From Apricaphanius iberus (taxonomy: Eukaryota > Chordata > Actinopteri > Cyprinodontiformes > Aphaniidae): a DNA stretch of 64,000 bases. The position numbers were made by a program, and so were the translations under genes. The stretch is taken from the NCBI GenBank assembly GCA_028564705.1, contig JAPXFQ010001786.1, positions 744,001-808,000 on the forward strand. The letters run 5' to 3'. Shown piece after piece: positions 4,228 to 62,309 of the stretch. How positions within the stretch are numbered: position 1 is the first letter of the stretch; each line of letters begins with the position of its first letter. The notes under the pieces are model-generated. The model was not told where the DNA came from and did no database searches. It worked only from the letters and a program-made list of their open reading frames with translations.

Positions 4228-4342
4228 AGAAAGGACGGAGCAGACTGTACTTCTTGTTTCAAGTTTAGGTCCTTCAAGGATTGCAACAAGATACTGCAGA
4301 TCTTCTGCAAGTCTGTTGTGGAGAGTGTAATATCTTCAACCA
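4228..4342 (+). pseudogene. LINE reverse-transcriptase C-terminal scrap
   Basis: Plus-strand reading, with frameshifts, gives residues resembling the region after the RT core of fish LINEs: an RLYFL start, then leucine-rich residues, then SVV..SVI. It is about 115 bp long and abuts both the Tc1-like fragment and the next LINE, so it is a broken relic. Confidence 0.5.
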
Positions 4343-5826
4343 TTACCCTCCCTCGATCAATACGACTTAGCTAACTACAGACCTATATCTAACCTTCCTT
4401 TCTTATCCAAAATTCTTGAGAAAATAGTTGCTAATCAAGTATGTGAGCATCTAAACAGCAACAACCTGTTTGAAGAATTTCAGTCAGGTTTTAGAGCTCA
4501 TCATAGCACTGAAACAACACTGGTGAAAGTTAATAATGATATTCTACTGGCCTCAGATAATGGATTTGTGACTGTTCTGGTCTTGTTAGATCTCAGTGCT
4601 GCTTTTGATACATACGATCATAATATTCTCTTAGAAAGGCTTGAACATGTTGTACGGATCAAGGGAACAGCACTAGGCTGGTTTAAATCATATCTGTCCA
4701 ACAGATTTCAGTTTGTTCATGTCAATGATAAACCTTCTAAACACTCCAGGGTTACTTGTGGAGTACCCCAGGGTTCTGTGCTTGGACCAATTCTCTTTTC
4801 TCTATATATATATCCTTCCAATTGGTAAAATAAGTAGACAGCATGGTATGAATTTCCACAGTTATGCTGATGTTACACAATTATATTTATCAATAAAACC
4901 TAATGAATCCAGTCAGTTTGTTAGATTACAGTCATGTCTTGAAGACATAAAAAACTGGATGACTGAATTTTCTGCTTTTAAATTCAGACAAGACAGAAGT
5001 TGTTGTCTTTGGACCAGAAGCTTTAAAAAGGAAACTGCTAAGTCAATCACTTCATCTGGATGGCATTAAACTGGCCTCTGGTAATAATATAAAGAACATT
5101 TGTGTAATTTTTGATCAAGACATGACATTTAAATCCCATATCAAACAGGTTTATACCATGTATTTCCTTCACTTCCGGAAAATTGCTAAAATAATAAACA
5201 TCCTGTCTAGGAGTGATGCTGGGAAACTAGTCCATGCATCTTTTACTTCAAGGCTGGACTACTGTAATCCTTTATTATCGGGAAGTCCACAAAATGCAAT
5301 TAAAAGCCTTCAGTTGATCCAAAATGCTGCAGCAAGAGTTCTGATGAATATTAAAAAGAGAGATCACATTTTTCCTGTTTCAGCTTCTCTCCATTGGCTC
5401 CCTGTTAAATCGAGAATAGAGTTTAAGATCCTCTTCCTTACTTATAAAGCCCTTAATAATCAAGCTCCATTGTATATAAGAGATCTGTTTGTTCCATATG
5501 TTCCTAACAGAGCACTTTGTTCTCAGAATGCAGGTCTACTGGTAGTTTTAAGTTTTTCTAAAAGTAGAAAGGAAGGCAGATCTTTTAGTTATCAGGCTCC
5601 TCTCCTGTTGAACCAGCTCCCAGTTTTAGTCCGTGAGGCAGATACTCTGTTGGTATACCGGTTCATACCGAAAACTGGTGTTTATCTTTATAAATTTTTA
5701 ACATTCCCCTATGACCGGTCAATAGCTCGGACAATTCCTGCAAAGTTTAATGAGGGGAAGTGTTTCAGCCAGGACTGATTTCACTTCTACACGCTCTTCA
5801 CCACAGTGTAGAAAATAACTTTTTAA

Positions 5827-19924: not shown

Positions 19925-20615
19925 ATGTGTAACAGTCATCGACATTCAGCTTTCACTGCTGAAAAGAGCAGGGATGTAGCTACAATCTGAATATCAAATG
20001 GGGTTTCTAAATTATGGTATGGTGACACAGTGAATCCTCAAAAATAGTAGATTTTCATGATTTTAGACTTCTAACTAAACTTTGTGTCGAGCAAAGTCCA
20101 ATTGTGAAAAACTGCAACAGCTATCGCCATCCGGTCTTCACTGCTGAACAGAGCAGGGACGTAGCTAAACTCTGAGTTTCCAATGGGGTTGCTAGGTTAT
20201 TGTATGGTGACACAGTGAATCCTCAAAAATAGTGGATTTTCATGATTTATGACTTCTGACTAAACTTTGGGTCGAACAACGTAAAACTGTGAAAAAAGCA
20301 TAAGAGCCATCGACATGCGATCTTCACTCCCGAACAGAGCAGAGATGCAGCTACACCCTGAATTTTAAATGAAGTTTCTAGGTTATTGAATGGTGACACA
20401 ATAAATCTTCAAAAATAGAGGATTTTCATGATTTTTGATTCTGGCTAAACTTGGTGTAGAACAAAGTGAAATTGTGAAAAAAACGTAACAGCTATAGACA
20501 TCTGGTCTTCACTGCTGAACAGAGCAGGGATGTAACTACACCCTGAATTTCAAATGGGGTTGCTAGGTTATTGTATGGTGACACAGTACATCCTCAAATG
20601 TAGGAGATTTTCAAT
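19925..20615. repeat. Tandem array, four copies of about 185 bp
   Basis: The anchor 'atggtgacac' occurs at about 20,019, 20,204, 20,390 and 20,575, spacings of 185-186 bp. Each unit contains 'cttcactgctgaacagagcag', 'ggggtttctaggttattg' and 'gattttcatgat'. Copies differ by scattered substitutions. Non-coding. Confidence 0.9.
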
Positions 20616-21320
20616 TTGGGGCAGTACCAAAATATAGTCAAAAAACCTAAAATTAGCTAAGATACTAACAAGAGCTAGCATGCTAATGCTAGCTAACATG
20701 TTGGCATTGCTATAAACCTGATGAGGACCAAAATATAGTCAAAAAGCTAAAATGAGCTAAAATGCTAACAAGAGCTAGCATGCTAATGCTAACTAGCATG
20801 CTATAACTAGCTAACATGTTTTCATTTATATAAACCCACTCAGTAGTAAAATATAGTTGAAAAGCTAAAATTAGCTAAAATGCTAACAAGAGCTAGCATG
20901 CTAATGTTAACTAGCAGGCTAATGCTAGCTAACATGTTGGCATTACTATAAACCTGATCAGGACCAAAATATAGTCAAAAAGCTAAAATTAGCTAAAATG
21001 CTAACAACAGCTGGCACGCTAATGCTAACTAGCATGCCAATCCTAGCTAACATGTTGGGATTACTATAAACCTGATTAGGATGAAAATATGGTCAAAAAG
21101 CTGAAATTAGCTAAAATGCTAACAACAGCTAGCATGCTAATGCTAACTAGCATGCCAATGCTGGCTAACATGTTGGCATTGCTATAAACCCGATAAGTAC
21201 CAAAATATATTCAAAAAGCTAAAATTAGCTAAAATGTTAACAAGCACTACCATATAAATGTTTACTAGCTGCTAATGCTGGCTAACATGTTGTCGTTATT
21301 ATTAGTAGGATTATTATGAA
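20616..21320. repeat. Tandem array, about six copies of 118 bp, rich in GCTAGC/GCTAAC
   Basis: The anchor 'ccaaaatatagtcaaaaagc' recurs at about 20,627, 20,728, 20,847, 20,963, 21,081 and 21,200. Each unit has 'gctagcatgctaatgctaac' and 'ctaacatgttggcatt'. Units decay toward 21,320. It abuts the 185-bp array directly. Confidence 0.9.
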
Positions 21321-22345
21321 AGTATACAGAAAAAGCTGAAATAAACTAAAATGCATACAAGGCCTACCATTCTGCTCCTAAGTACCTGTATATTATATAA
21401 GGAATGTGAAGACTTTCCTTAGTCTAATGAAATGGTCAGTTTCAATAGGCCAGGCAGGAACATACATAGAAATGAATGTGGGTTCTGAAGCATTTTGGGA
21501 TATGGAGTTGTTCTGGATGTCAAACCTGCTGATTCATAGACAGACACAGAGAGACAGATAAAAAGAAAGGAATGCAGATGAAAGGATAGAGACAGACAGG
21601 AGGACTGAGACAGACTGAAACAGCTTCTATTTCCAGGTTTTCATCAAAAAAGTGCTCAGAACAAATCGTTCCCATTCGAAAACCGTACAAGGTATCGGAA
21701 AAATTCTTGAAGTGTGAGCGAGATTTATTTATAGTTTCACATTGCACCGACGACGCAAGGGAGCATAAGGAAATCGTTGCTAATTTATACAAGTTTGGAT
21801 ATAGGCTTTTGGTTTTGCTCCAGTACAGCAGCGGATCCTCAGTTCTTACAATGTTCTGTTCAGCAAGATAGCGGTCTTTTAAGCAACTCCCAAGTATAAG
21901 AGAAAATATAGCCTAGAGCTCACTTCAGAGGGCTACAACAAGTAGGATGTTCAATTAAATATCTGACTGACTGACTAACTCACTAACTCACTACGAACAC
22001 CGACACACACCACATTGTGCCGCGGGATTCAAAGCGCTTACAGGGAAGCTGGTCGCGGGACGAATCAATGACGTCACCGGGACAAACCGATGCCTTGGTC
22101 ATGTGATTTCCCCGTTGTTGACACAGGCCTCGAATCGAGACTTCATCTGGCATGCCCACTTTTGCTCGAGACACGAAATTTTACTTAGGGGTGGGATATC
22201 CCTTTAAGAACTTTTAAAGGATTAAAGGACAAATGTCCCAACAAGACCTTAAAAAAACTCATCCATGCATTTATCTTTAGTCCAACAGTTTACTGCAACA
22301 GTGTTCTCATGTGTCCCTAAAAAGTAAATCGGACAATGTTCTTAT
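21321..22345. other. Unassigned DNA
   Basis: A gaca/gaga-rich patch lies at 21,540-21,620. The stretch at 22,000-22,170 is more GC-rich. No coding exon or element ends could be fixed. Confidence 0.35.
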
Positions 22346-41515: not shown

Positions 41516-42892
<1,377 letters not shown>

Positions 42893-44028: not shown

Positions 44029-46880
44029 TCAAAAACTTAGCTGTTCATGAAAAGGATTGTTCTCAAACTGTTCTAGGAAGCTCTTCGTGTTTAACAGATA
44101 TTCGGAAGATAATACTGAAGTCTGTAAAAAATTAGCAAACCCAATGACTCTTTGCAGCCAATCTTGGATTATTTGGATCTTTTGTGGGTCTACTCTCACC
44201 TGCCCGTCCTCCAAGATGTACCCGAGGAAGGTGATTGAGGAGACCTGAAACTGGCACTTCTTTGATGTACAGGCGGTTTTCCAGCAACCTTTGGAGAACT
44301 TGACGGACGTGGATCTTGTGTTGGTCGAGGGTCTTGGAGAAGATGAGTATATCATTGAGGTATACAAAAACAAACTTATGAAGAAAGTTTGGTAGCACAT
44401 CATTAACAAGGGAGTCCGAAAGGCATCACAAGACATCGAAATGACCAATAGGGGTCTTGAAGACGGTTTTCCATTCATCAGCCTGACCGGATCTGAACGA
44501 GATGGCAGATTCCTGGGATCTAGTTTGGAGAAAACAGATGCCTGACTGACAGGTTCGAGAGCTGATGAGAGTAACAAGAGAGAATACTTGTTTTTTATAG
44601 TGATTTGGTTGAGTCCCTGACAATCCATGCAGGGACAGAGGGAACCATCTTTCTTAGCCACAAGAAAGAAACCAGCACCAAGAGGAGATGATGAAGGACA
44701 TGTAATGCGTGCTTCAAGGGATTCTTGAATGTATTTTTCCCCTGCTTCTCGTTTTTTTGACAGGGAGATTGTTCAACGGGCGGAATAGAGAAGAGCACCG
44801 GGTAACAGGTCTATTGCACAGTTGTAGGGACAATGAGGTGGTAACGAGAGGGCAAGACCTTTTCGGAATGCCTGATGGAGGTTGTGATATTCTTCAGGAA
44901 CATTGGAGAGATCTGAGTCTGGTTGGGGACTAGTTCAAGGATTAGCTTTTCAGGTATAGCCGATCTGAGGCATGTCTTTAAACAATGGGAGCTCCAGGCT
45001 TCAATGCGACGGTTGGACCAATTAATTTTGGGATTATGTGCGGTGATCCAGGGGAAACCAAGAACACAGGGGTTTTATTTATAAGGGTAAACATAAAATT
45101 GAACCTCTTCATGGTAATTACCTGAAACTAGTTGATGGGTCTGGTGTGTAATTATAGTCATTTGCCTCCCATCAATTGCGGACGCATTTATGGGAGTCCT
45201 AAATGCAAAAACGGAAATATTACACTTTTCGACAATTTCAGGGTGTATTGAATTTTGCTTTGAACCGGAATCTATCAAAGCTGAACACTGAAAGGGGTTA
45301 TATTCTTGGTTGAAATAGAGCGTTGCTGGTACAGTCGATCTGTTTTCAAGATGGTTACCTGCCAGGACCCCTACTTTCACTGGCAGGACGACTCTTTTTG
45401 GCCGAATCGGACAGTTGGCTATGTAATGCTGAGGTGAACCGCATTAGTGACAACAAGTATTTGATAATCGTCTCTGTCTCTCCTGATGGGAAAGACGTTT
45501 TCTGCCTATCTGCATTGGTTCAAGAGAAGGTTCTCTAGGCGGTCAGGGCTGTTTGGAAATTGTGAGTTCTGCCTTTGGCTCGGAGCGATTTAAAAACATG
45601 GTCTTAGTCTTGGATCGTTCTCTAGAACAGTTATCTAACCTAACTGCCAATGTGATTAAGTTGTTCAAAGTTTTTGGCTCATCTCTAGATGCTAAATCAT
45701 CCTTTATTCTTTCTTCTGCCTGATAAAATGCTCCCTTTAACGCTGGAGCATTCCATCCTGTCTCGTTTGCCAAAATGTTAAATTCAATGGCGGAATCTGC
45801 AAATGAACTATTTCCTTGTCTATTTGTCCATACGTTTCTGGCGGACTCTTCCTCATTTTTTACCGGGGCAAAGGATTCATTAAATAATTCCTGAAACTCT
45901 AGTAGTAGTATATTTAACCATGGACTGGGGAGAACGAGAGAATGCGGGGGTGAAGACACATCCTGGAAGTGCAAAGCGGAAGTGGATAAATCTGCACGCC
46001 TATTGTTTACTTTTATAATTAATTCAAAAACCTGTTGATTAAAACAGTCAATGGTCCAAGATTGGAGAGTTAACTGACTTGACCATTCTTGTATGGTTCA
46101 CCCATGTTGTCCTAACAGCTTTCCCTGCTGGGAAATGGCTGCTGAAATGTGTGCTGTAGAGTCTGGATGGCCAAATTGTTCTGTTATGTTTTGGTTGCGT
46201 ATGACTCAAAGGCAGTGCAAATTTCAGACACGGAAGCAGAATAAAATTTTAGAAAGATTTATTTAAGTCTGGTTTTCTGTCGTCTCAGGAAAATCGCCAG
46301 CGTGGGTTGCAGGAACAAACTGTGATGGGAAGGTAGGTTTAAGTGAGGAGAGTAAAATTGGGGAATAAACTGAGAAGGAGTAGGTCTTACTTGAGGACAG
46401 GAGCAAGCAGGCTAGGTTGGAAGCAGTTGGATTCTTTTCTCTGTGGGTGGCTGGAGGTGATGTGTTCCTTTGATTGTATTTGTGCAGGTGGAGCGAGCGG
46501 ACAGGCAGGCGAGCAGACTTGGCGGAAATAGGTGAGCAGAGGGAAACCAATCCAGTGGAGGTTGCGGTGCAGAGGCTGACCTGGACATCTAGCAAGGTAA
46601 AGGTAAGTGACTCCTAGGAGATCCTTTCCAAGAGAACGAGAACTTGAAGGAGGATGCACAGGAGGACGAGGAAGGAACTAGACCTGGATCGTCGAGGAAG
46701 GCAGGGTGAGTATCTCACAAAGGAATTCAGAAATGTTTCAGAATTTCAATATTCTCTAAGGCTACGGTTGGCCGTGTTACAAGGCTTGTAGTGAGAACAA
46801 TCTGGTGTCAGCTTGCTGGATCCGCTCCTTTTTTGTAGCTGGTAGAGATCAGCTCCAACGAGCCGCACCTGTTGACAGCT
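44029..46880 (-). mobile_element. Gypsy-type LTR retrotransposon, 3'-truncated, reverse strand
   Basis: Reading on the minus strand from the right: an LTR-like region (about 46,880-46,200) with 'ccagattgttctcactacaa' and a TTAAATAAATC polyadenylation-type site; gag from about 46,170 to 45,543 (ISAAISQQGKLLG near the start, then FQELFNESFAPVKNEEESAR and FNILANETGWNAPALKGAF); protease at 45,380-45,075 with its ALIDSGS active site; RT at 44,661-44,029. The RT has MAKKDGSLCPCMDCQGLN and, in another frame, [12 protein letters not shown], where active copies have YLDD. The element ends near [10 protein letters not shown]. RNase H, integrase and the second LTR are absent. Several frameshifts occur. 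Confidence 0.85.
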
Positions 46881-48515: not shown

Positions 48516-50648
48516 CCTTGCTCCACGTAAAATCGAGTTAAACACACAAAGCACTTCGTTGTAAACCTCATAATGAACCTGGAGCTTTGACTTGCGCCAT
48601 TTCCGTTCGGCTTTCCGGCACTCCCTTTTTTGTGCCCTGACCAAAACTTATTTTCTCCGAGGTGCCTTTTGCTTAGTGTTAACCATTTTAACCTTAACAG
48701 GAGCAATAGTATACAAAACATTTACAACCCTTGAAGTGTAGGAGTCCAATAGATTATCAACATTTGAGCATGGGGGATTTTCAAATCTGATCAATTCCAT
48801 AAATTGTGTCCTTGTGTCATTTATGCGTCTTCTCTGAATAACTCCAGTCCCAACTACTAGTTTGGGTACAAAAATAGGTCAAAGAAGACACAAAAATGAT
48901 CAGATAAAGCAACATCAACAATATTGACATTTGTTATATTAACACCTATCATTGGTTACATCCACATGCACATTAAAATCACCTGAAATTACTAAACAAA
49001 TTCCGTGCAAACAAATGTAAGTAATTCAGTAAAATCTTCAATAAAACAATTCTGTGGTGGTTTTTAAATTGTCATATTAAGTATGTGAGATTGTTTAATC
49101 TCCATTTTGAATGACACATACTCAAACGATAGAAAAAACCCACATGACAGTTTGTGGGTCAATATATTGTACCTGAAAATGGCACAAACTCCCCCTCCCC
49201 TCTGGTTTTGCCGTATTTCAGACACAAAATTGAAGTGAGATGGACTACACTCAATCAAAACTGCATTGCCAGTGTTTTTCGCTTTTAGACACTTTTCAGT
49301 TAAAAACATTAAATTCAGATTAAAAAAGGAAATTAAACTATTTACTAAAAATGACTTGTTTTTTAATTATCTGACATTGAGAACAGCATGTTTGAGATTT
49401 ATCTGTGATGGAGTAGATGGAATCTTTTTTTATTATTCAGTCTGACTGTTCCTCTGTTATGTAATCTACATGGTTTGACAGTACTGCTTGTTTTAGAAGA
49501 GCACACTCCCTCTCTGGATGTCTGGTTGGTTTTGAGTTGCTATGGGTGGTAGCAACGTAGAGGCCCTTAACGTCCTAGACAGCAGCAGTAAAGCTGCTTG
49601 AGGTAACAGCTGTGGGCACCGGTGGTGGGGGCCGAGCTGGGGAGACCTTGGTTGGTGAAAGGCAGGAGTGGGGCATGAAACTTCTTTGGAGACAAGGAGT
49701 TTGATTTTGACATGACTGGAGTGAGGGGAACCATTTTAATCCAATATTGTACCAAGTTTTCAAAGTGGTTGGGAAATCCCATAGGTGACTCTGGAGACAC
49801 GAACGATCCTGAAAAGTCTCTGGAAGGTGTAGATGTAGCAGTTGGGTTCCAGGACGGTGGTGGAATAGATGAGAGTGTTCCTGGGGTTGAATTATTTAAT
49901 GTTGATGCAGGTTGTGCTGCAGCTGAGTTTTTCCCCTGAGATTCAGAAGCAGGTGGTGCTGCTACTGTGGGTGAATCATTTCCTGTTACTTTTCGTGCAG
50001 ATGGTGCAGTTGTGGCTGAATCCTTAACTGCGGCGGTTTCCTTTGCTGTAGATGCTGTAGATGCTGATGACATTGCTCCGACTGAATCTTTTGTCGGGGA
50101 TGCAGGCCAAGCCTTTGCTGGCGAGCCTGGAGCTCTTCTCTCGCTCCTCTCTGCTCTCTCCTGCAGCTTTGGCCTTCCCTGATTCCGTAGAACATGGAGG
50201 AGGTTATCTGTCAATCGTCTCACTCCACCTCCGCTCAAATGTGGGCGATTTGCTTTAAACAGATCATCGGGCTGCCAGAACAGATTAAAGTTCTCTATAA
50301 AATATAGTCCTCTTGACTCACAGACTTTGGACAGCCATGTATTAAATTGAAAGAGCCATGAAAATTTGTTTATCCTTCCATTGATGTTTGGAAGAGGTCC
50401 ACTGATAAAAATTTGTATTGCCTCTTTGTCCAGACAATGAAGTCTCTCAAAAAAGTTTATTAAAATTTTCTTTCAAGATTTCAAACTGTTTATTTATTAC
50501 GTCCACTGCACCAACATATATTACCATTTCTTTAATCCCAGGGTTATTATAATTGGTTATTATATATGTTATTATATATGTAATTTCCTTCTTTAGAACA
50601 TCTGAGATGTCAGAAACCCCCCTAGGGAAGTCATCCCGACACTCGGCA

Positions 50649-51040
50649 TAGGCGCCATGTTAAGCGTTAGGGATGGAGGACCGTTTTTTTCAAAAAATCC
50701 CCCCGCCCGCCGCGAGGGCCCTCCGGGGACGGGGCCCCCTTAGGAAATTGGCCGGGGCCCGTCCCCGCGATCCCCCGCGGGTCCCGCGCCTCTGGCCCCC
50801 CCGGGGGCCGCGTGGCGGATTTTCAAAGTCGCGCTGTTTCTTATGCCGAGTGGCAGCTTTGACAAAAGCGGCCACCAGGTGGAGCCTCCCGACCCGAATG
50901 TCAGAATCCTATGCCATCTGTCAGAAACGGATGCCGAACGTCGGTGGAACCGTAACCGACGTTAGGCATCGGTCTCCCTCCATGGAAACTTAATCCGAAT
51001 GTCGGCGAAACGGGTTTTGGTCAGATTTGGGACTAAACGG
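50649..51040. other. GC- and CpG-rich left end of the block
   Basis: The stretch 50,695-50,830 is largely C and G runs with many CpGs ('ccccgcccgccgcgagggcc'). Downstream are GTCAGAA and GTCGG variants of the shared core. Apparent Arg/Pro-rich open frames come from base composition. Confidence 0.6.
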
Positions 51041-51420
51041 TCGGCCCTGGCTCTGTACTGGGCTCATTGTACTCTGTGTGGGCCCCTGGTGCTGTACTGT
51101 AGTGCAGGCCCAGTCCTGGGCTTATGTAACCATGCTGGAGGCCTCTATGCTGGGCTAATCATGCACCGTGTGGGCCTGTGCAGCTACACTGTAGTCCCTG
51201 GCTTCATGTAACCATGCTGGAGGCCTCTGTACTGGGTTCATTGTACTCTGTGTGGGCCCCTGGTGCTGTACTGTAGTGCAGGCCCAGTCCTGGGCTTATG
51301 TAACCATGCTGGAGGCCTCTATGCTGGGCTAATCATGCACCGTGTGGGCCTGTGGAGCTACACTGTAGTCCCTGGCTTCATGTAACCATGCTGGAGGCCT
51401 CTGTACTGGGGTCATTACAC
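51041..51420. repeat. Two copies of a 174-bp unit related to the 90-bp array
   Basis: 'tctgtactgggctcattg' at about 51,051 recurs at about 51,225. Each copy contains two diverged versions of the 'ggaggcctct' unit, so it is roughly a dimer of the 90-bp repeat. Confidence 0.75.
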
Positions 51421-53645
51421 AGTGACAGGTCAGTGACATCACAACACTTACTTCACTGACATTTCCCTTAAGTCCCTATTCCTGGCAAGTGATTCCAAAT
51501 GTCAGTCAGTATATTAGGGCTTTGACTGACATTTGCCTTAGGACCCCATTAAAGGAAACTGATGTTAAATTCCAATGGCCCCCACTGACGTTTGCCATCA
51601 GTTTCCCTTAATGGGGACTTAAGCGAAATGTCAGTAAAGTCAGACTTAGATTAATTTGTTAGTCCTGTCAGTGACATCACAACACTTACTTCACTGACAT
51701 TTCCCTTAAGTCCCTATTACTGGCAAGTGATTCCAAATGTCAGTCAGTATATTAGGGCTTTGACTGACATTTGCCTTAGGACCCCATTAAAGGAAACTGA
51801 TGGTAAATTCCAATGGCCCCCACTGACGTTTGCCATCAGTTTCCCTTAATGGGGACTTAAGGGAAGTGTCAGTAAAGTCAGACTTAGATTAATTTGTTAG
51901 TCCTGTCAGTGACATCACAACACTTACTTTACTGACATTTCCCTTAAGTCCCTATTCCTGGCAAGTGATTCCAAATGTCAGTCAGTATATTAGGGCTTTG
52001 ACTGACATTTGCCTTAGGACCCCATTAAAGGAAACTGATGGTAAATTCCAATGGCCCCCACTGACGTTTGCAATCAGTTTCCCTTAATGGGGACTTAAGG
52101 GAAGTGTCAGTAAAGTCAGACTTAGATGAAACTGTTAGCCCTGGCTTCATGTACCCAGTCTGGAGGCCTCTATAATGGGGTCATTGTACTCTGTGTGGGC
52201 CCCTGGTGCTGTACTGTAGTGCAGGCCCAGTCTGGCTTCATGTACCCAGGGAAGAGGCCTCTATAATGGGGTCATTGTACTCTGTGTGGGCCCCTGGTGC
52301 TCCACTGTACAGCAGGCCCAGCCCTGGCTTCATTTACCCAGGCTGGAGGCCTCTGTACTGGGATCATTACACAGTGACAGGTCAGTGACATCACAACACT
52401 TACTTCACTGACACTTCCCTTAAGTCCCTATTCCTGGCAAGTGATTCCAAATGTCAGTCAGTATATTAGGGCTTTGACTGACATTTGCCTTAGGACCCCA
52501 TTAAAGGAAACTGATGTTAAATTCCAATGGCCCCCACTGACGTTTGCCATCAGTTTCCCTTAATGGGGACTTAAGCGAAATGTCAGTAAAGTCAGACTTA
52601 GATTAATTTGTTAGTCCTGTCAGTGACATCACAACACTTACTTTACTGACATTTCCCTTAAGTCCCTATTCCTGGCAAGTGATTCCAAATGTCAGTCAGT
52701 ATATTAGGGCTTTGACTGACATTTGCCTTAGGACCCCATTAAAGGAAACTGATGGTAAATTCCAATGGCCCCCACTGACGTTTGCCATCAGTTTCCCTTA
52801 ATGGGGACTTAAGGGAAGTGTCAGTAAAGTCAGACTTAGATGAAACTGTTAGCCCTGGCTTCATGTACCCAGCCTGGAGGCCTCTATACTGGGTTAATAA
52901 CACAGTGACAGGGCCCCTGGTGCTCTACTACTGCAGGCCCAGCCCTGGCTTCATGTACCCAGGCTGCAGGCCTCTATACTGGGTTAATTACACAGTCATA
53001 GGGCCCCTGGTGCTCCACTAGTGCAGGCCCAGCCCTGGCTTCATCTACCCAGGAAGGAGGGATTAGGGAAACGACTGACATTAAGGGGATGAAATGCTTA
53101 AGGGAAATGTCAGTCCTACCCAGGGAGGAGGCCTCTATACTGGGCTGCATAAGCTCCGTGTGGGCCCCTGGTGCTCCACTAGTGCAGGCCCAGTCCTGGC
53201 TTCATCTACCCAGGAAGGAGGGATTAGGGAAACGACTGACATTAGGGGGATGAAATGCTTAAGGGAAATGTCAGTCCTACCCAGGGAGGAGGCCTCTATA
53301 CTGGGCTGCATAACCTCCGTGTGGGCCCCTGGTGCTCCACTAGTGCAGGCCCAGTCCTGGCTTCATCTACCCAGGCTGCAGGCCTCTGTACTGGGGTTAT
53401 TACACAGTGACAGGTCAGTGACATCACAACACTTACTTTACTGACATTTCCCTAAAGTCCCTATTACTGGCAAGTGATTCCAAATGTCAGTCAGTATATT
53501 AGGGCTTTGACTGACATTTGCCTTAGGACCCCATTAAAGGAAACTGATGGTAAATTCCAATGGCCCCCACTGACGTTTGCCATCAGTTTCCCTTAATGGG
53601 GACTTAAGGGAAGTGTCAGTAAAGTCAGACTTAGATGAAACTGTT
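51421..53645. repeat. 238-bp repeat units interspersed with 90-bp type units
   Basis: Anchor 'cagtgacatcacaacactta' starts at 51,431, 51,669 and 51,907 (period 238) and again near 52,384, 52,620 and 53,416. Each unit carries 'gactgacatttgccttagga', 'ccttaatggggacttaag' and 'ccaaatgtcagtcagt'. Blocks of 90-bp type sequence separate the groups at 52,140-52,380 and 52,855-53,400. Two copies of a 'gattagggaaacgactgaca' module lie near 53,060 and 53,220. Confidence 0.9.
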
Positions 53646-55735
53646 AGCCCTGGCTTCATGTACCCAGTCTGGAGGCCTCTATAATGGGGTCATTGTACTC
53701 TGTGTGGGCCCCTGGTGCTGTACTGTAGTGCAGGCCCAGTCTGGCTTCATGTACCCAGGGAAGAGGCCTCTATACTAGGATAATAACACAGTGACAGGGC
53801 CCCTGGTGCTGTACTGTAGTGCAGGCCCAGTCTGGCTTCATGTACCCAGGGAAGAGGCCTCTATGCTGGGATAATAACACAGTCATAGGCCCCCTGGTGC
53901 TCCACTACTGCAGGCCCAGCCCTGGCTTCATGTACCCAGGCTGCAGGCCTCTATACTGGGCTGCATAACCTCTGTGTGGGCCCCTGGTGCTCCACTACTG
54001 CAGGCCCAGCCCTGGCTTCATGTACCCAGGCTGCAGGCCTCTATACTGGGTTAATTACACAGTCATAGGGCCCCTGGTGCTCCACTAGTGCAGGCCCAGT
54101 CCTGGCTTCATGTACCCAGGCTGCAGGCCTCTATACTGGGCTAATTACACAGTGTGGGCCCCTGGTGCTCCACTAGTGCAGGCCCAGCCCTGGCTTCATG
54201 TACCCAGGCTGCAGGCCTCTATACTGGGCTGCATAACCTCCGTGTTGGCCCCTGGTGCTCCACTAGTGCAGGCCCAGCCCTGGCTTCATGTACCCAGGCT
54301 GCAGGCCTCTATACTGGGCTGCATAACCTCCGTGTGGGCCCCTGGTGCTCCACTAGTGCAGGCCCAGCCCTGGCTTCATGTACCCAGGCTGCAGGCCTCT
54401 ATACTGGGCTGCATAACCTCTGTGTGGGCCCCTGGTGCTCCACTAGTGCAGGCCCAGCCCTGGCTTCATGTACCCAGGGAGGAGGCCTCTATACTGGGTT
54501 AATTACACAGTCATAGGGCCCCTGGTGCTCCACTAGTGCAGGCCCAGCCCTGGCTTCATGTACCCAGGCTGCAGGCCTCTATACTGGGCTGCATAACCTC
54601 TGTGTGGGCCCCTGGTGCTCCACTAGTGCAGGCCCAGCCCTGGCTTCATGTACCCAGGCTGCAGGCCTCTATACTGGGCTAATAACCTCTGTGTGGGCCC
54701 CTGGTGCTCCACTAGTGCAGGCCCAGCCCTGGCTTCATGTACCCAGGGAGGAGGCCTCTATACTGGGCTGCATAACCTCTGTGTGGGCCCCTGGTGCTCC
54801 ACTAGTGCAGGCCCAGCCCTGGCTTCATGTACCCAGGCTGCAGGCCTCTATACTGGGTTAATTACACAGTCATAGGGCCCCTGGTGCTCCACTAGTGCAG
54901 GCCCAGCCCTGGCTTCATGTACCCAGGCTGCAGGCCTCTATACTGGGCTGCATAACCTCTGTGTGGGCCCCTGGTGCTCCACTAGTGCAGGCCCAGCCCT
55001 GGCTTCATGTACCCAGGCTGCAGGCCTCTATACTGGGCTGCATAACCTCTGTGTGGGCCCCTGGTGCTCCACTAGTGCAGGCCCAGCCCTGGCTTCATGT
55101 ACCCAGGCTGCAGGCCTCTATACTGGGCTGCATAACCCCGTGTGGCCCCTGGTGCTCCACTAGTGCAGGCCCAGCCCTGGCTTCATGTACCCAGGCTAGG
55201 AGCCTCTATACTGGGCTGCATAACCTCCGTGTGGGCCCCTGGTGCTCCACTAGTGCAGGCCCAGCCCTGGCTTCATGTACCCAGGCTGCAGGCCTCTATA
55301 CTGGCTGCATAACCTCCGTTGGGCCCCTGGTGCTCCACTAGTGCAGGCCCAGCCCTGGCTTCATGTACCCAGGCTGCAGCCTCTATACTGGGCTGCATAA
55401 CCTCCGTGTGGGCCCCTGGTGCTCCACTAGTGCAGGCCCAGCCCTGGCTTCATGTACCCAGGCTGCAGGCCTCTATACTGGGCTGCATAACCTCCGTGTG
55501 GGCCCCTGGTGCTCCACTAGTGCAGGCCCAGCCCTGGCTTCATGTACCCAGGCTGCAGGCCTCTATACTGGGTTAATTACACAGTCATAGGGCCCCTGGT
55601 GCTCCACTAGTGCAGGCCCAGCCCTGGCTTCATGTACCCAGGGAGGAGGCCTCTATACTGGGCTAATTACACAGTCATAGGGCCCCTGGTTCTCCACTGT
55701 AGTGCAGGCCCAGTCCTGGCTTCATCTACCCAGGA
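53646..55735. repeat. 90-bp tandem array (over 20 copies) with a higher-order pattern
   Basis: The unit is anchored on 'ggcccagccctggcttcatg', for example at 54,181, 54,271, 54,361 and 54,451. Two variants share the length but differ internally: 'gctgcataacctccgtgtgg' and 'gttaattacacagtcatagg'. The second recurs at about 54,041, 54,499, 54,858, 55,573 and 55,663, partly at multiples of four units. Because 90 is divisible by three, several frames are free of stops for over 100 codons; these are not genes. Confidence 0.92.
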
Positions 55736-58620
55736 AGGATTAGGGAAACGACATTTGGGGGATGAAACGCTTAAGGTAATTGTGAGGACCCTTACCCCAG
55801 AAACAGAAACGGTTGCCAATTAAGGACGTGCGTTCCACGTAGACACTTGAGATTTAGTGGACACTATCGCTCGGTCTGGGCTGGGGCCACGGCGGCGGAT
55901 TCGAGAATCATATGACAGCAGGCGGCAACGATAACTGACGATTGCGCGGTACTGGCACATCGTACGGGGTCGGGAGGCGGCTCAGAACGTTCAAAAGTTC
56001 GAACGCTGCCCAGGCTATGTTATCCGGAGTTTGGCCACAGCAATCACAGAACACGTTCCAGATATTCCCCTGAGCAACTGTAATCAAACAGCACGTCTCT
56101 AAGTGCCTTCTAAAGCTAACTACAGGAAAGGAGCCTCGTAGGAGCCCGGGACCGAGTCCACCCCGCTCAGTACGTAGCCCGATACGACATATCCAGAGCA
56201 CAGGAGGATGCCACTCAGTTAAGGGTTTGGTTTTTGGAAAGAGCACTCGCAGAGTCCTCCGTTGACATTTGGGTTAAGAGTCTCGCAATTGAAACTGATT
56301 CCCAATGTCGCACAACTGAAAAAGTTAGGGACCTCCCTTGCAAACTTAATGGTAATGTCATAGGCCAAATGTCAGAACGTTCCCCAGAAACGAGCAACGG
56401 CAGCCAATTAAAAGCCGTCTGAGGCCGTATCTCGGCTCACGTTAAGCGCAGACGCTCCACGTTCGGCACGCGCCCTGCCGGGGGTCGGGGCCACGACCTG
56501 CGTCCAAATCGCCCCGGTCGGACATAGCACGTGGTCAGGGGGTCACCGTAAGGGTCAAATGTTCGGGACCTCGTAGGTGCTAGGTTCTTGGTCTTATCGT
56601 CACGAAACCGCACAGATGGGTTCATATTCCTCCACGCTACGTACGTAGCAAAGAGCGTGCCTCCAAACGCCTCCTACGGCAAACTCCTCACAGGAGCCTC
56701 GTAGGAACCCAGGGCAAACATTGCGGCGTTCCTTGACTCGTCACGTACAAAACATTTAAGTACGAAGGGGACAGGAGTCCGTTAAGCGTTGATTTTTTAG
56801 CCCAACGTCAGCGGAATAAGGACTTCTGTGACATTTAGAGTAAGTCCCCATTGGAGCGACTGATTCCAACTGTCAGCGGGAGTTTTGGAGGGAAATAAAC
56901 CCAAATTTTCCATGGCCGATTACTGCTCGACCGAAGGTCAGAAGTGAACCAAATTCGCAGGGTACGATCGTAGAGGGGCCACGTATGCTAATCCGGTGTC
57001 TGTTTCCCCATAAACCCCCCAGGGAAAAATACCCTAACCCCAGCCAAGCCCAAAAAATGAACGGTCTGTCGGCTTTGCACCCTAAGAGGGCTCGATGTCA
57101 AAAGTGATAAGGGTTATGATATTTTTTTTATACTTGTGCTACAGTTATAGATCTTTAATATGATGTTCTCGGGAGTGCCACCGGTATTCCTGACTTGGTT
57201 CGGGACCCCCACGAGCCGCGCTAGGGCCATGACGGTTGGAGTAAGTTTGAATGGAGAAATCGTTCTCCGACAGGTGAATCGGAACTGATGCCAAGCATCG
57301 GAAGTCCAAACGCTTCCGTTTCGGACATTTCCGGGCGTACGTCCGCGACGAGTGGACGGACGCGTTCCCGACGCTCCGAGCTACGTCCGCACCCGAGCGC
57401 CACTCTCTAAACCCCTTCTGAAAAGAACTCCTTCCAGGAGCCACCTACGCGATCAGGACGAGTGTCGTAATTTACGCCAATTCGCCCCCGACAACATATC
57501 CCGAACGGAATGGGATCGGACCGAGTTAAGCGTACTTTGCCCCCCGAGGACATTCGCTTGACCCCGGCCCGCTGACGATTGGCATCAGGTGGCTGACATC
57601 CGGAATCACATAGCATTGGAGAAAAACCTAAGGGAAGTGTCATAAGGCAAATGTCAGAACCCTTCACCCAAAACGGAAAGGGGTACCAATTAAGCACCTG
57701 GCGAGCACGCGGACGCGTGCGCTCCGGTGGGCCGGGCGGGGGGACCATGGAGCACGTCATACGTCAGGCAGGCGCAGCTGCGACGTCGAACGGGGTCGCT
57801 AGGTCGCTCCGAACATTTAAAAGTTCGGACGACGCAGGGGCTAGGTACTCGGTCGTTTGGACACGCCGATCGGAGGACGCGATACAGACCTCCCGCTGAG
57901 CGAGTGGAACCCACGCCCGCGTCTCTAAGGGCCTCCTAAAGCTAACTACCGGCAGGAGCCTTGTAGGAGGCCGGGGCCAATTCCGCCACGTTCGGCACGT
58001 AGCCTGGAACGACATATCCGGAGTAGACCGTGATACGTTTCCGTTAAACGTTCGGTATTTGGAAAGAGCACTCGCCGACCCCCGCCATTGACTTTTGGAT
58101 TAAGATGGGTACAATGCAAACAGATTCCAATTGTCGCGCGACAAAAAAGATTAGGGAAACGACTGACATTCGGGGGATGAAATGCTTAAGGCAAATGTCA
58201 GGACCCTTACCCCAGAAACAGAAAAGGCTGCCAACGAAGCACTTGCGTTCCAGGTAGGCGTTCGTGCTTCGGTGGGCGTGTCGGCGGAGCACGGGGGCAC
58301 GATATCTGTCGATCGCGCGGTCATGGCACGTGGTATGGGGTCGGGAGGCGGCTCTGAACGTTCGAAAGTTCGAACGCTGCCCAGGCTATGTTATCCGGAG
58401 TTTGGCCATGGCGATCACCAGAACGTGCTTGCTTCCAGTTATTACGTGAGCTACTCTATCAAAAACTCCTGTCTCTATGTGCCTTCTAAATCTAACTACC
58501 GCCAGGCGCACTCTTAGGCGCCGGGGTTGAATTGCGCCCCCTTCCGTACGCTGTTGGTACGACATATCCCGGTTTGTCACGTTTACGTGTACGTTTAGCG
58601 TGTACGTTTAGCGTGTTAGG
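55736..58620. repeat. Four diverged CpG-rich units of about 500-600 bp or longer
   Basis: Modules recur in the same order. They are 'gattagggaaacgac' (55,737; 58,152); 'cttaccccagaaacagaaa' and variants (55,790; 56,380; 57,655; 58,207); 'gttcgaacgctgcccaggct' (56,000; 58,368); 'cttctaaagctaactac' (56,108; 57,931; 58,485); 'acgacatatcc' (56,184; 58,009; 58,559); and 'tttggaaagagcactcgc' (56,232; 58,054). The copy at about 56,360-57,640 is longer and most diverged. No coding function is recognised. Confidence 0.75.
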
Positions 58621-58785
58621 GCACCAAAAGCAAAAGAGCAGTTCGACATTGTATTAGGCGAAATCGAATGGTAATGATTCTTAAAATGTCACGATTAGTC
58701 TAGGCCGGTCGGGAAACGTCTCGCCATCCGGACCTTCCGATGTCGCACGGGTCTGAAACCCGGGGTGGCTCAAGATCCTGAGTGC
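58621..58785. other. Junction segment between two repeat families
   Basis: A short non-repeated stretch between the CpG-rich units and the 310-bp array. It begins just after a tandem 'gtacgtttagcgtgt'. Confidence 0.5.
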
Positions 58786-60085
58786 GTGCCCTGATGCGTA
58801 CTCTCGAGTTTCACATCTCTGGCTCAAAGCATTGGGTAATTATGAAGAAAAAGGGGCCCGTAATGCCTGCAGGCCTAGTCGTATGTGAAAGGGTGACCTT
58901 TGACATTTCCCAAGGTGCTGCGTGTGTGAAACTTGACACGCAGGTCCCCCTTGGCAGTCTGATGGACGCATGCGAGTCTCAGACCCCTGGGCCCGAGCGT
59001 TGGTGAAATATTAAGAAATAACATGGCGTGACCCCTGACCTTTGACGTTTCCCAAGGTGCTGCGGGTGTGTAACTCGGAGGCTAGACTCAGGCCCGTGCT
59101 CTGATGCGTAGTCTCGAATTTCACATCTCTGGCTCAAAGCATTGGGGAATTATGAAGAAAAAGAGGCCTGTAATGCCTGAGGCCTAGTCAGGTGACCTAG
59201 GGTTGACATTTGACCTTTCCCGAGGTCCTGCGGGTGTAAAATTCGGAACATCGGTCCCTCTTGGCTCTCTGATGGATCCCTGCGAGTTTCAGACCCCTAG
59301 CCCTAAGCATTGGGGAATTATTAATGAAAACACCTACCGTGACCCCTGACCTTTGACGTTTCCCAAGGGGCTGAGGGTGTGTAACTCGGAGGCTAGACTC
59401 AGGCCCGTGCCCTGATGCGTACTCTCGAGTTTCACATCTCTGGCTCAAAGCATTGGGTAATTATGAAGAAAAAGGGGCCCGTAATGCCTGCAGGCCTAGT
59501 CGTATGTGAAAGGGTGACCTTTGACCTTTCCCAAGGTGCTGCGTGTGTAAAATCCGGGTCGCCGGTCCCCCTTGGCAGTCTGATGGACGCATGCGAGTCT
59601 CAGACCCCTGGGCCTGAGCGTTGGTGAAATATTAAGTAATAACACGGCGTGACCCCTGACCTTTGATGTTTCCCAAGGTGCTGCGGGTGTGTAACTCGGA
59701 GGCTAGACTCAGGCCTGTGCTCTGATGCGTAGTCTCAAATTTCACATCTCTGGCTCAAAGCATTGGGGAATTATGAAGAAAAAGGGGCCCGTAATTCCTG
59801 CAGGCCTAGTCGTATGTGAAAGGGTGACCTTTGACATTTCCCAAGGTGCTGCGTGTGTGAAACTTGACACGCAGGTCCCCCTTGGCAGTCTGATGGACGC
59901 ATGCGAGTCTCAGACCCCTGGGCCCAAGCGTTGGTGAAATATTAAGAAATAACATGGCGTGACCCCTGACCTTTGACGTTTCCCAAGGGGCTGCGGATGT
60001 GTAACTCGGAGGCTAGACTCAGGCCCCTGCCCTGATGCGTACTCTCGAGATTCAGATCTCCGTCTCAAAGCATTGGGGAATTATG
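58786..60085. repeat. 310-bp tandem array, each unit a dimer of about 155 bp
   Basis: Anchor 'gatgcgta' occurs at about 58,793, 59,103, 59,414, 59,724 and 60,034. Each unit holds two diverged halves, both containing 'gacctttgac(a/g)tttcccaagg' about 155 bp apart. The halves also share 'caaagcattgg'/'gagcgttggt' and 'attaagaaa'/'tatgaagaaa' modules. About four full units are present and closely similar. The third half-unit in the second copy (59,190-59,350) is most diverged. The 70-80 codon open frames here recur only because the array repeats. Confidence 0.9.
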
Positions 60086-61354
60086 TCGATTGAGGCCCGT
60101 CTCTGACATTTGTCATAACATTTGCTTGATGGCAAAGTTAATCGTAATGTCATCGAAAGTTGTTCGAAAAGTAGGGATCTGTCTGACATTTGGAATCTGA
60201 TTTTCTGATTCCAAATGTCAGACACTAACCCAGAAAGTCGATTCATGCCCTTCCCCCACCCTGTCACTTGTATGTAGGACAAAGGTCAAACTCGTTGACG
60301 CTCGTATCTCGGCTTCCGCTCGACGTAGAGAGCTGGGATTCGGGACACGGGTCACGTACGCGGAGACGTGTAGAATCCTTGCGGGTCACGTGACCTTTGA
60401 CCCCTAAATTTGACCCGAGGGTCAAACCTTGCAGTTCTTAAGCCGAGTGTCAGGCCTGACATTTGGGAACGTCTTTCCCTAACTTTTAGGCTTTTTTTCA
60501 CCGTTGACAGTTTTATGCTATTTCTGGCAAACCGAGTGCCGTACGAGCACCGTTTTCGCACAGCACGTGGGCGGCGGGCGTGGGAGTCGACGTGGGACGT
60601 CGACTGACCCATGCGGGTACCGTGAAAAATAAACGTCTGCTTTTGAAGAACACACTACGCGACGTGAAGGCTCAGACGCAGATGAATAGCTTCACTGTGA
60701 ACATCGGACCAAATATCGACTTTTTTTTTCAAACCGGGCCCAGGGACCGGGGACTTATGAAGCTCAAACGGTACACGGAGGGGCTCTGCCTCGTAGATTC
60801 GCGGACCCCTGGCTCGAACGTGGTTCGATGTGGTCTCGGGCAACTCCAGGGTCCGCCTCGGAGCGTCGTCAACGAGGCCCGACGTAGCCGGGACCGCTCG
60901 TCTACCGTGAGCACTAAACGTGGCAAAGCTAATCCCAAATGTCGGAAAAGCAAGGGAATCCCTAAGGCAAATGTCAGTGCAAGCGGTCCCTGTTAGGGCC
61001 CCGGGTAAGGCGCAAGGGTCACGTCCCAAGTGTCAGTAACTAAGGGAAACCCTAAGGCAAATGTCAGTGCAAGCCGTCCCAGTTAGGCCCCCGGGTAAGG
61101 CGCAAGGGACATGTCCCAAGTGTCAGCAACTGATGGCAAGTGTCAGGGCTATGCGCACGGTGTAGCGCTGGCGCCACCCTCAGGAAAGTCGCGTTAGGCG
61201 CAAGGCATATGGCAAATGTCAGTAAGTTGTCCCTTGTGTCGCAATGCAACATGTGCAGAGTGTCGACCCCGATGACATTGGGGTTAGTTTACTGAATGTC
61301 AGCATAAGATCCCATGTTAAATTTCTAACATTTGGGACAACTTCCCTAAACTGT
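60086..61354. other. Low-copy right part of the block with core motifs
   Basis: Mostly unique, CpG-rich sequence. A duplicated 'ccctaaggcaaatgtcagtg' lies at about 60,960 and 61,051. A small inverted pair, 'ctgacatttggaatctgatt' and 'gattccaaatgtcag', lies at 60,183-60,226. The core motif continues to about 61,305. No gene recognised. Confidence 0.55.
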
Positions 61355-62309
61355 GGCACTCGGATTGCTGCTTGTAACAATTCTGTCCATGTTTATATTA
61401 GATATGGCTCCGTCTCCAAGCACAAGGATATCTCTATCCTTGACACTTTTTACATTTTTTTCTCTCCATCTTTGTTTTGACTTCTTGTTCTCTATTTCTC
61501 TCTGATTATCTTTGTTCATTATACTTAGCTTCTGAGAGAGGTAAATATCTGTTTAACTTTATTCCACTTTATTTATGTCCACTTTTACCAGCATGTTGTT
61601 TTTGCTTTTGTCTAGTACCAAGTTGTCTGTTAAGTTTTGGGAAAGTTATGGTATCATCTAGCTTTAGGTTGCAAGTTTCAGTTTTTCTAGTCTTCTTACC
61701 GGATTCCATTGGGAGTGTGTCATGAAGTCCTTTTTCTGTCTCCAAGGTACGATGTTTGTGTTACTCCCTCAGCCATATTGACAAGATTGTCGCCGCTGGC
61801 TCGTCAGATGAGTTATAAAAAAAAAGGCATAAAAGTAATTAAAAAGTTTTGGTTTACTTAAAAGCAGAGAATAAAATCATATCCAAGATGTGTCAAAAAA
61901 AAGAACGATTAAAAATGATTAGAACTTGATTAAAAATTGATTTAAGAGGCAAGCAGCAAGCGCAAGCTGAAAACACGTCTGCACTCTTGAGAAGCAGGAA
62001 GCAGCAACTGAGCAACAGACCAACTAAGTGAGAGCAGTTGCAACATTCGTGCCACAACCAACTTGAACATTTTCAAATCCAAACATAACAATTTTAAATA
62101 TAAATATCCCGTTGTCTGGGTGTGAGTGGAGCCCCCTGGTGGTCCGACACACTATAGCTGTGTCCGAATCCAGCGGCTGGATCCTTCTAAGGCCGGATTT
62201 GTCGGCCAGTTACGTCACAGTGCCGCGACTAGGCCTGTCGAAATTCGAAGACTGCTTTAAATGCGGCTGACGAATCTGGCCGACTTTTCCCCGATTTGAA
62301 GTCCCGTTG

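Follow-up and report, generated by a model that had tools for sequence, protein, structure and literature searches.

How satellite DNA originates and spreads is an old question, and a single locus of Apricaphanius iberus poses it in concrete form. Near the right end of the window (the whole stretch of 64,000 nucleotides analysed here), an SGNH-type LINE ORF1 on the minus strand is split by about 10.7 kb of repetitive DNA. What is this DNA, and how did it come to lie there? An earlier note on the same sequence proposed a large mobile element made of tandem repeats. The core of that proposal is upheld by an AAAC target-site duplication, inverted termini, restoration of the LINE reading and a motif that runs through several modules, whereas the duplications and ends originally offered as evidence are not. 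The block is probably a single large non-autonomous cut-and-paste DNA transposon, without superfamily assignment, that inserted into an old copy of the LINE ORF1. We infer the mobility of the 10.7-kb block from one insertion, the single copy examined. If this reading is true, an element composed almost wholly of several kinds of repeats, and possessing defined ends, would be a direct vehicle for planting satellite arrays at new sites by transposition.

The interrupted reading frame locates the insertion

A protein search with the LINE ORF1 found five relatives, two of which are named Neogobius melanostomus and are nearly identical to each other. At the interruption site the sequence P-S-A-T-V, in which PSA leads straight to T-V, is present in five of five relatives (P0002 and P0004, which have almost the same sequence, are both counted). 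The residues that follow the site differ among them: VSDI in three, VPAI in one and VTDV in one. On the minus strand, the right flank of the block reads CCG AGT GCC ACA GTT T, and GTTT CT GAC ATC is contributed by the left. When GTTT (AAAC on the plus strand) is counted once, the joined flanks form ISNINMDRIVTSSNPSATVSDISDVLKKEIT in one frame; this AAAC join reads ...IVTSSNPSATVSDISDVLKKEIT and restores PSATVSDI, and the LINE has neither lost nor gained sequence there. Taken together, PSA-T-V of the relatives and the codons of the flanks therefore place the join at GTTT/AAAC and the insert at 50618-61347. The resulting features, with the terminal inverted repeats considered below, are:

49567-50613, minus strand: LINE ORF1, part downstream of the insertion, with at least one frameshift of its own
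50614-50617, plus strand: left target-site duplication AAAC; the flank join restores PSATVSDI as in the relatives
50618-61347, no strand: inserted element, 10,730 bp, without a recognisable gene; boundaries from the flank join
50624-50637, plus strand: left terminal inverted repeat AGGGAAGTCATCCC; six extra bases, CCCCCT (50618-50623), come before it
61334-61347, minus strand: right terminal inverted repeat AGGGAAGTTGTCCC, with no further bases beyond it
61348-61351, plus strand: right target-site duplication AAAC, from the flank join and the relatives
61352-61540, minus strand: LINE ORF1, portion upstream of the insertion, which contains SGNH block I (VLGDGAI); its outer limit is approximate

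The earlier description of a sharply bounded block of about 10.7 kb of tandem and dispersed repeats within a LINE ORF1 thus holds, while its boundaries and target duplication have to be replaced. By the flank join, the true left end (50618) lies 31 bp further out than the 50649 given before, and the true right end (61347) lies 7 bp further in than 61354. Joining the flanks at the formerly proposed GGCA duplication, itself a chance match, puts nine residues (ECRDDFPRG) where five of five relatives have a single T. The other duplication considered, gacactcgg/ggcactcgg, is a coincidence, its left copy lying in the element and its right copy in the LINE, and we rejected the corresponding join also for leaving out the T-V of the relatives. 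Finally, the sequences taken for the two ends of the element do not mark its termini: taggcgcc... lies within the element, and half of ...acagtttagggaag is LINE.

Two further observations concern the LINE itself. The usual SGNH block I is GDS; here it is GDG, both in the window (61352-61540) and in all four relatives that cover it (P0002, P0003, P0005 and P0006). With GDG in place of GDS, the catalytic serine seems to be missing from this LINE group. A 12-bp tandem expansion within ORF1 (50543-50585, residues YIITYIITNY) is found in none of the five relatives.

Target-site duplication and termini

At the one insertion examined, the AAAC duplication is perfect over its 4 bp. A 4-bp repeat is expected by chance at about 0.7% for a given end pair (fixed phase) and at about 2.5% over any phase. 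Four base pairs is short for a target-site duplication, and the true one may be shorter still, with a chance base added.

The imperfect terminal inverted repeat, AGGGAAGT(CA/TG)TCCC, is identical at 12 of 14 positions, which agrees with the terminal inverted repeats generally expected of class II elements. The ends are asymmetric: the left copy begins six bases in, behind CCCCCT, and the right one has nothing extra. With the same freedom of offset, a 12/14 match was reached by 42 of 30,000 random end pairs drawn from the block, and by 10 of 30,000 drawn from outside it (draws with ends less than 60 bp apart were skipped, yet kept in the denominator). Under a looser null based on local alignment the ends stand out less (block, 276 of 20,000; outside, 72 of 20,000). 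Extending the comparison to 200 bp of each end does not lengthen the inverted match beyond 14 bp. Scanning the whole window with the terminal pattern at up to three mismatches gave three matches, namely both ends and an internal site at 57022, versus 0.51 expected.

Look-alikes of the terminal module, of the form TTAGGGAA..., were noticed by eye at 53063, 53224, 55740, 58151 and 60482, and (T/C)TAGGGA occurs 10 times in the block versus 4 times in the 53.3 kb outside. None of the internal relatives of the terminal 45 bp is clearly significant; because shuffled sequences score as well in 37 of 100 cases for the left end and 5 of 100 for the right, repetition of the terminal module inside the element is only suggestive.

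An ordinary satellite is an array without defined insertion ends, unlike the exact insertion with target-site duplication and terminal inverted repeats seen here. The block might instead be satellite or heterochromatic DNA copied into the LINE during break repair, with 4 bp of microhomology and no transposase. Several repeat families side by side do look like heterochromatin, and about 2.5% of joins would share a 4-mer by chance if any phase is allowed, but the LINE lost and gained nothing, and among random end pairs just 0.14% (block) or 0.03% (outside) attain inverted ends of 12/14, so we regard this origin as improbable. An assembly join between LINE and satellite contigs is far less probable still: prone as tandem arrays are to misassembly, a false join is not expected to yield codon-exact LINE halves, a 4-bp duplication and inverted ends. 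The copy numbers of the arrays may nevertheless be wrong in the assembly. Inverted ends, exact insertion and a short duplication make up a cut-and-paste signature, and the block is therefore read as a non-autonomous element moved in trans.

Modular architecture of the block

Tandem Repeats Finder returned units of 238, 90, 174, 161, about 310 and again 90 bp from the block, and self-comparison added diverged units of 500-600 bp. The unit sizes reported earlier (238, 90, about 500-600 and about 310 bp) were recovered by these analyses, which also brought in the 174- and 161-bp units. A blastn search of the block against the rest of the window gave no match at E 0.01. The G+C content of the block is 47.5-61% in 1-kb windows, versus 40% for the whole left flank. 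Its modules are:

50618-51050, plus strand: left end module, rich in G+C and forming a nested palindrome whose outer arms lie around 50640 and 50843; CpG o/e 1.04
51051-53645, plus strand: alternating arrays of 90/174/161-bp type and 238-bp type, with recurring junctions; CpG o/e 0.09
53646-55734, plus strand: 90-bp array of about 23 copies, without the 21-bp motif described below; CpG o/e 0.04
55735-58784, plus strand: low-copy region with diverged 500-600-bp units; CpG o/e 1.14
58785-60085, plus strand: 310-bp array of 4.2 copies, with weak motif variants only; CpG o/e 0.63
60086-61347, plus strand: right end module with dense motifs; CpG o/e 1.01

Folded as single-strand DNA, the left 243 bases (50618-50860) form a nested palindrome (z -3.39) that is more stable than 200 of 200 shuffles. 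We considered the stretch 50640-50853 (215 bp, 11-bp inverted arms) as a separate small transposon and rejected this, because the stretch has no flanking duplication and its outer arm falls within the larger insert; we keep it as a palindromic end module. In the right end module there are a 45-nt palindrome (89%, 60180-60224) and two 90-bp copies in direct orientation (60952-61131).

Divergence differs strongly between modules. The six units of the 238-bp type compared are 96.6-99.6% alike, and four junction strings between 90-type and 238-type arrays are each present three times. The 500-600-bp units at 55735-56331, 57624-58148 and 58149-58784 are 61-70% alike, and the one at 56332-56900 only 50-54%. 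Within the 161-bp unit, 53 bp are 94-96% identical to the start of the 500-600-bp unit at 58149. Inspection by eye also revealed a palindrome-like GAAC/GTTC stretch (GAACGTTCGAAAGTTCGAAC type) in three of the four 500-600-bp units (55977-56008, 57805-57830 and 58351-58379); these stretches resemble heat-shock elements.

A 21-bp motif shared by several modules

A 21-bp motif with the core CCAAATGTCAG and the consensus TTAtGCCAAATGTCAGtgaag occurs in both orientations and has one site near either terminus. Sites above 9 bits number 79 in the insert versus 8 in the other 53.3 kb, counted with a model fitted on the block itself. With a held-out model, trained exclusively on nine variants taken from the 238-bp-type arrays and used at a threshold of 9 bits, the left end yielded 4 sites and the low-copy part and the right end 11 each, versus 7 in the 53.27 kb outside. 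The motif is therefore common to the left end, the 238-bp arrays, the low-copy region and the right end. The held-out model found no site in the 90-bp array and none in the 310-bp array, where weaker variants were seen with the block-fitted model only. Overall, all kinds of repeat except the 90/174-bp units carry at least a weak form of the motif.

CpG composition and the history of the arrays

CpG is undepleted in the ends and the low-copy part (o/e 1.0-1.14) and nearly absent from the 238/90-bp arrays (0.04-0.09); the flanks have values of 0.46 (left) and 0.63 (right). Among fifty 1-kb windows of the left flank the top value is 1.06, so the insert is not alone in having a high 1-kb CpG value. 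Although the three low-copy units that align well are just 61-70% alike, the low-copy units are rich in CpG, which is unexpected for old methylated DNA. The undepleted CpG suggests that the ends and the low-copy part either stayed unmethylated or arrived recently. The presence of CpG-rich and CpG-free modules within one insert offers a handle on selective methylation.

These contrasts bear on a different history, in which a short transposon with these ends inserted, the 238-, 90- and 310-bp arrays grew or were captured later in place, and at no time did the 10.7-kb block move as a whole. The contrast between CpG-poor arrays and CpG-rich ends does look like that of separate histories, the 90-bp array is without the motif, and the close similarity of the 238-bp-type units (96.6-99.6%) points to an expansion that is recent relative to the 500-600-bp units (61-70%). 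On the other side, the motif of the 238-bp arrays is also that of the end modules, and array and low-copy sequences are fused in the 161-bp unit; element material therefore makes up much of the DNA in the arrays. We consider later growth in place unlikely, if somewhat less so than break repair.

Under the preferred reading, that of a non-autonomous transposon inserted whole, a transposase acting in trans would have made a 4-bp staggered cut (AAAC) in the old LINE ORF1 copy. Most simply, the 21-bp motif would be a putative binding site of that transposase or of a host factor. Unequal exchange and segmental copying may have amplified motif-bearing modules into arrays, and the element would then have moved as a unit. 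Against this reading stand the single copy seen, the asymmetric ends without clearly significant internal relatives, the less striking local-alignment result, the 90-bp array devoid of the motif, the weak motif variants of the 310-bp array, the shortness of the duplication and the lack of a known transposase. The corrected ends make the vehicle idea testable in any related fish genome.

Searches for genes, RNAs and relatives

None of the 16 ORFs of at least 100 amino acids in the block reached the Pfam cutoff, and no DDE transposase was recognised among them; the element is therefore at most non-autonomous. Sub-threshold matches were to DUF2625 (E 0.013), NPBW (E 0.0012 and 0.042) and DUF1582 (E 0.0068), those to NPBW and DUF1582 falling in the 90-bp repeats. 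Coding remnants were rejected as an account of the block on the same 0/16 result. An rDNA spacer was likewise rejected, as no Rfam family was found in the whole window at gathering scores.

One ORF of the 90-bp array had no match in the protein collection, which yielded no other carriers. Scans with element patterns detected none in viral contigs or prokaryotic genome contigs (collections without fish genomes), a scan of viral contigs with the LINE protein gave no match, and neither did the low-copy part (55735-58784) against phage and plasmid collections. In the literature, judged on titles and the openings of abstracts, no element with these features was found, and four sequence strings looked up in literature texts had no match. 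Using the 4-bp duplication as a guide to superfamily gave no full match in the literature passages compared.

Comparison with known transposons

hAT elements have 8-bp target-site duplications, and Ac/Ds has subterminal motifs. TAGGG of the element fits the terminal pattern of hAT; we rejected hAT, since the 8-bp sequences AACCCCCC and AACTGTGG agree at only three of eight positions. Provided that neither copy has been altered, a length of 4 bp argues against a standard duplication of hAT or P type.

CACTA/EnSpm elements have CACTA/CACTG termini, target-site duplications usually of 2-3 bp and arrays of subterminal motifs. They resemble the block in their many copies of one short motif in both orientations and in having large non-coding derivatives. 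Here the termini are CCCCCTAGGG and AGGGAAG, not CACT(A/G), and this assignment was rejected too. A foldback element, with long terminal inverted repeats holding internal tandem repeats, was rejected on the 14-bp inverted match in the 200-bp end comparison.

Tetris, a foldback element of Drosophila virilis, has terminal inverted repeats of up to 1,735 bp that hold tandem repeats, and 8-10-bp target-site duplications (PMC4079207). It is like our element in being non-autonomous, in having no conserved ORF and in carrying, within a mobile element, tandem repeats able to seed satellite DNA (PMC4079207); ours differs in its terminal inverted repeat of about 14 bp, its 4-bp duplication and its internal arrays that are not mirrored. 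Galileo (P superfamily) has target-site duplications of 7-8 bp with consensus GTATTAC, extended terminal inverted repeats and a known transposase; it shares structural growth through internal tandem repeats and differs in both terminal repeats and duplication (PMC4168063). Transposons can therefore carry tandem repeats (PMC4079207, PMC4168063).

The piggyBac rule is a TTAA target duplication and a CCYT start of the terminal inverted repeat (PMC5601938), and the left end here (CCCCCTAGGG) resembles the latter. PiggyBac and Teratorn of medaka are comparable in the 4-bp duplication and as a large fish element (PMC5601938, PMC10045372), but no transposase or herpesvirus-like gene was recognised in the element here. 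Measured against the rule, piggyBac was rejected, because the duplication is AAAC, not TTAA, and because the left end is C-rich but the right end starts with AGGG, so that CCYT is not found at both ends.

On a bolder reading, which we hold to be rather unlikely, the element would represent giant non-coding transposons of fish that form a group not described before and are packed with putative binding sites, about 80 within 10.7 kb, for a transposase from a superfamily yet to be named; its ends and core would escape germline CpG methylation and its internal arrays would act as a satellite nursery.

Other features of the window

Two adjoining tandem arrays with units of about 185 and about 118 bp occupy 19930-21370, the second being full of short repeats of the GCTA type. 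A remnant of a DDE_3 transposase lies at 41739-42155. ORFs at 44029-46097 resemble remnants of an LTR retrotransposon, on the sole support of a gag match just under the Pfam cutoff. Reverse transcriptase ORFs of another LINE are found at 4331-5778; the best ten of 2561 relatives include one from Cyprinodon and seven from Nothobranchius furzeri, which makes a killifish-like percomorph the probable host. Among the matches listed for the second of these ORFs are also records assigned to Escherichia coli, Vibrio and Acinetobacter (P0031, P0053, P0054 and P0060; 62-63% identity), which look like fish DNA in bacterial records.
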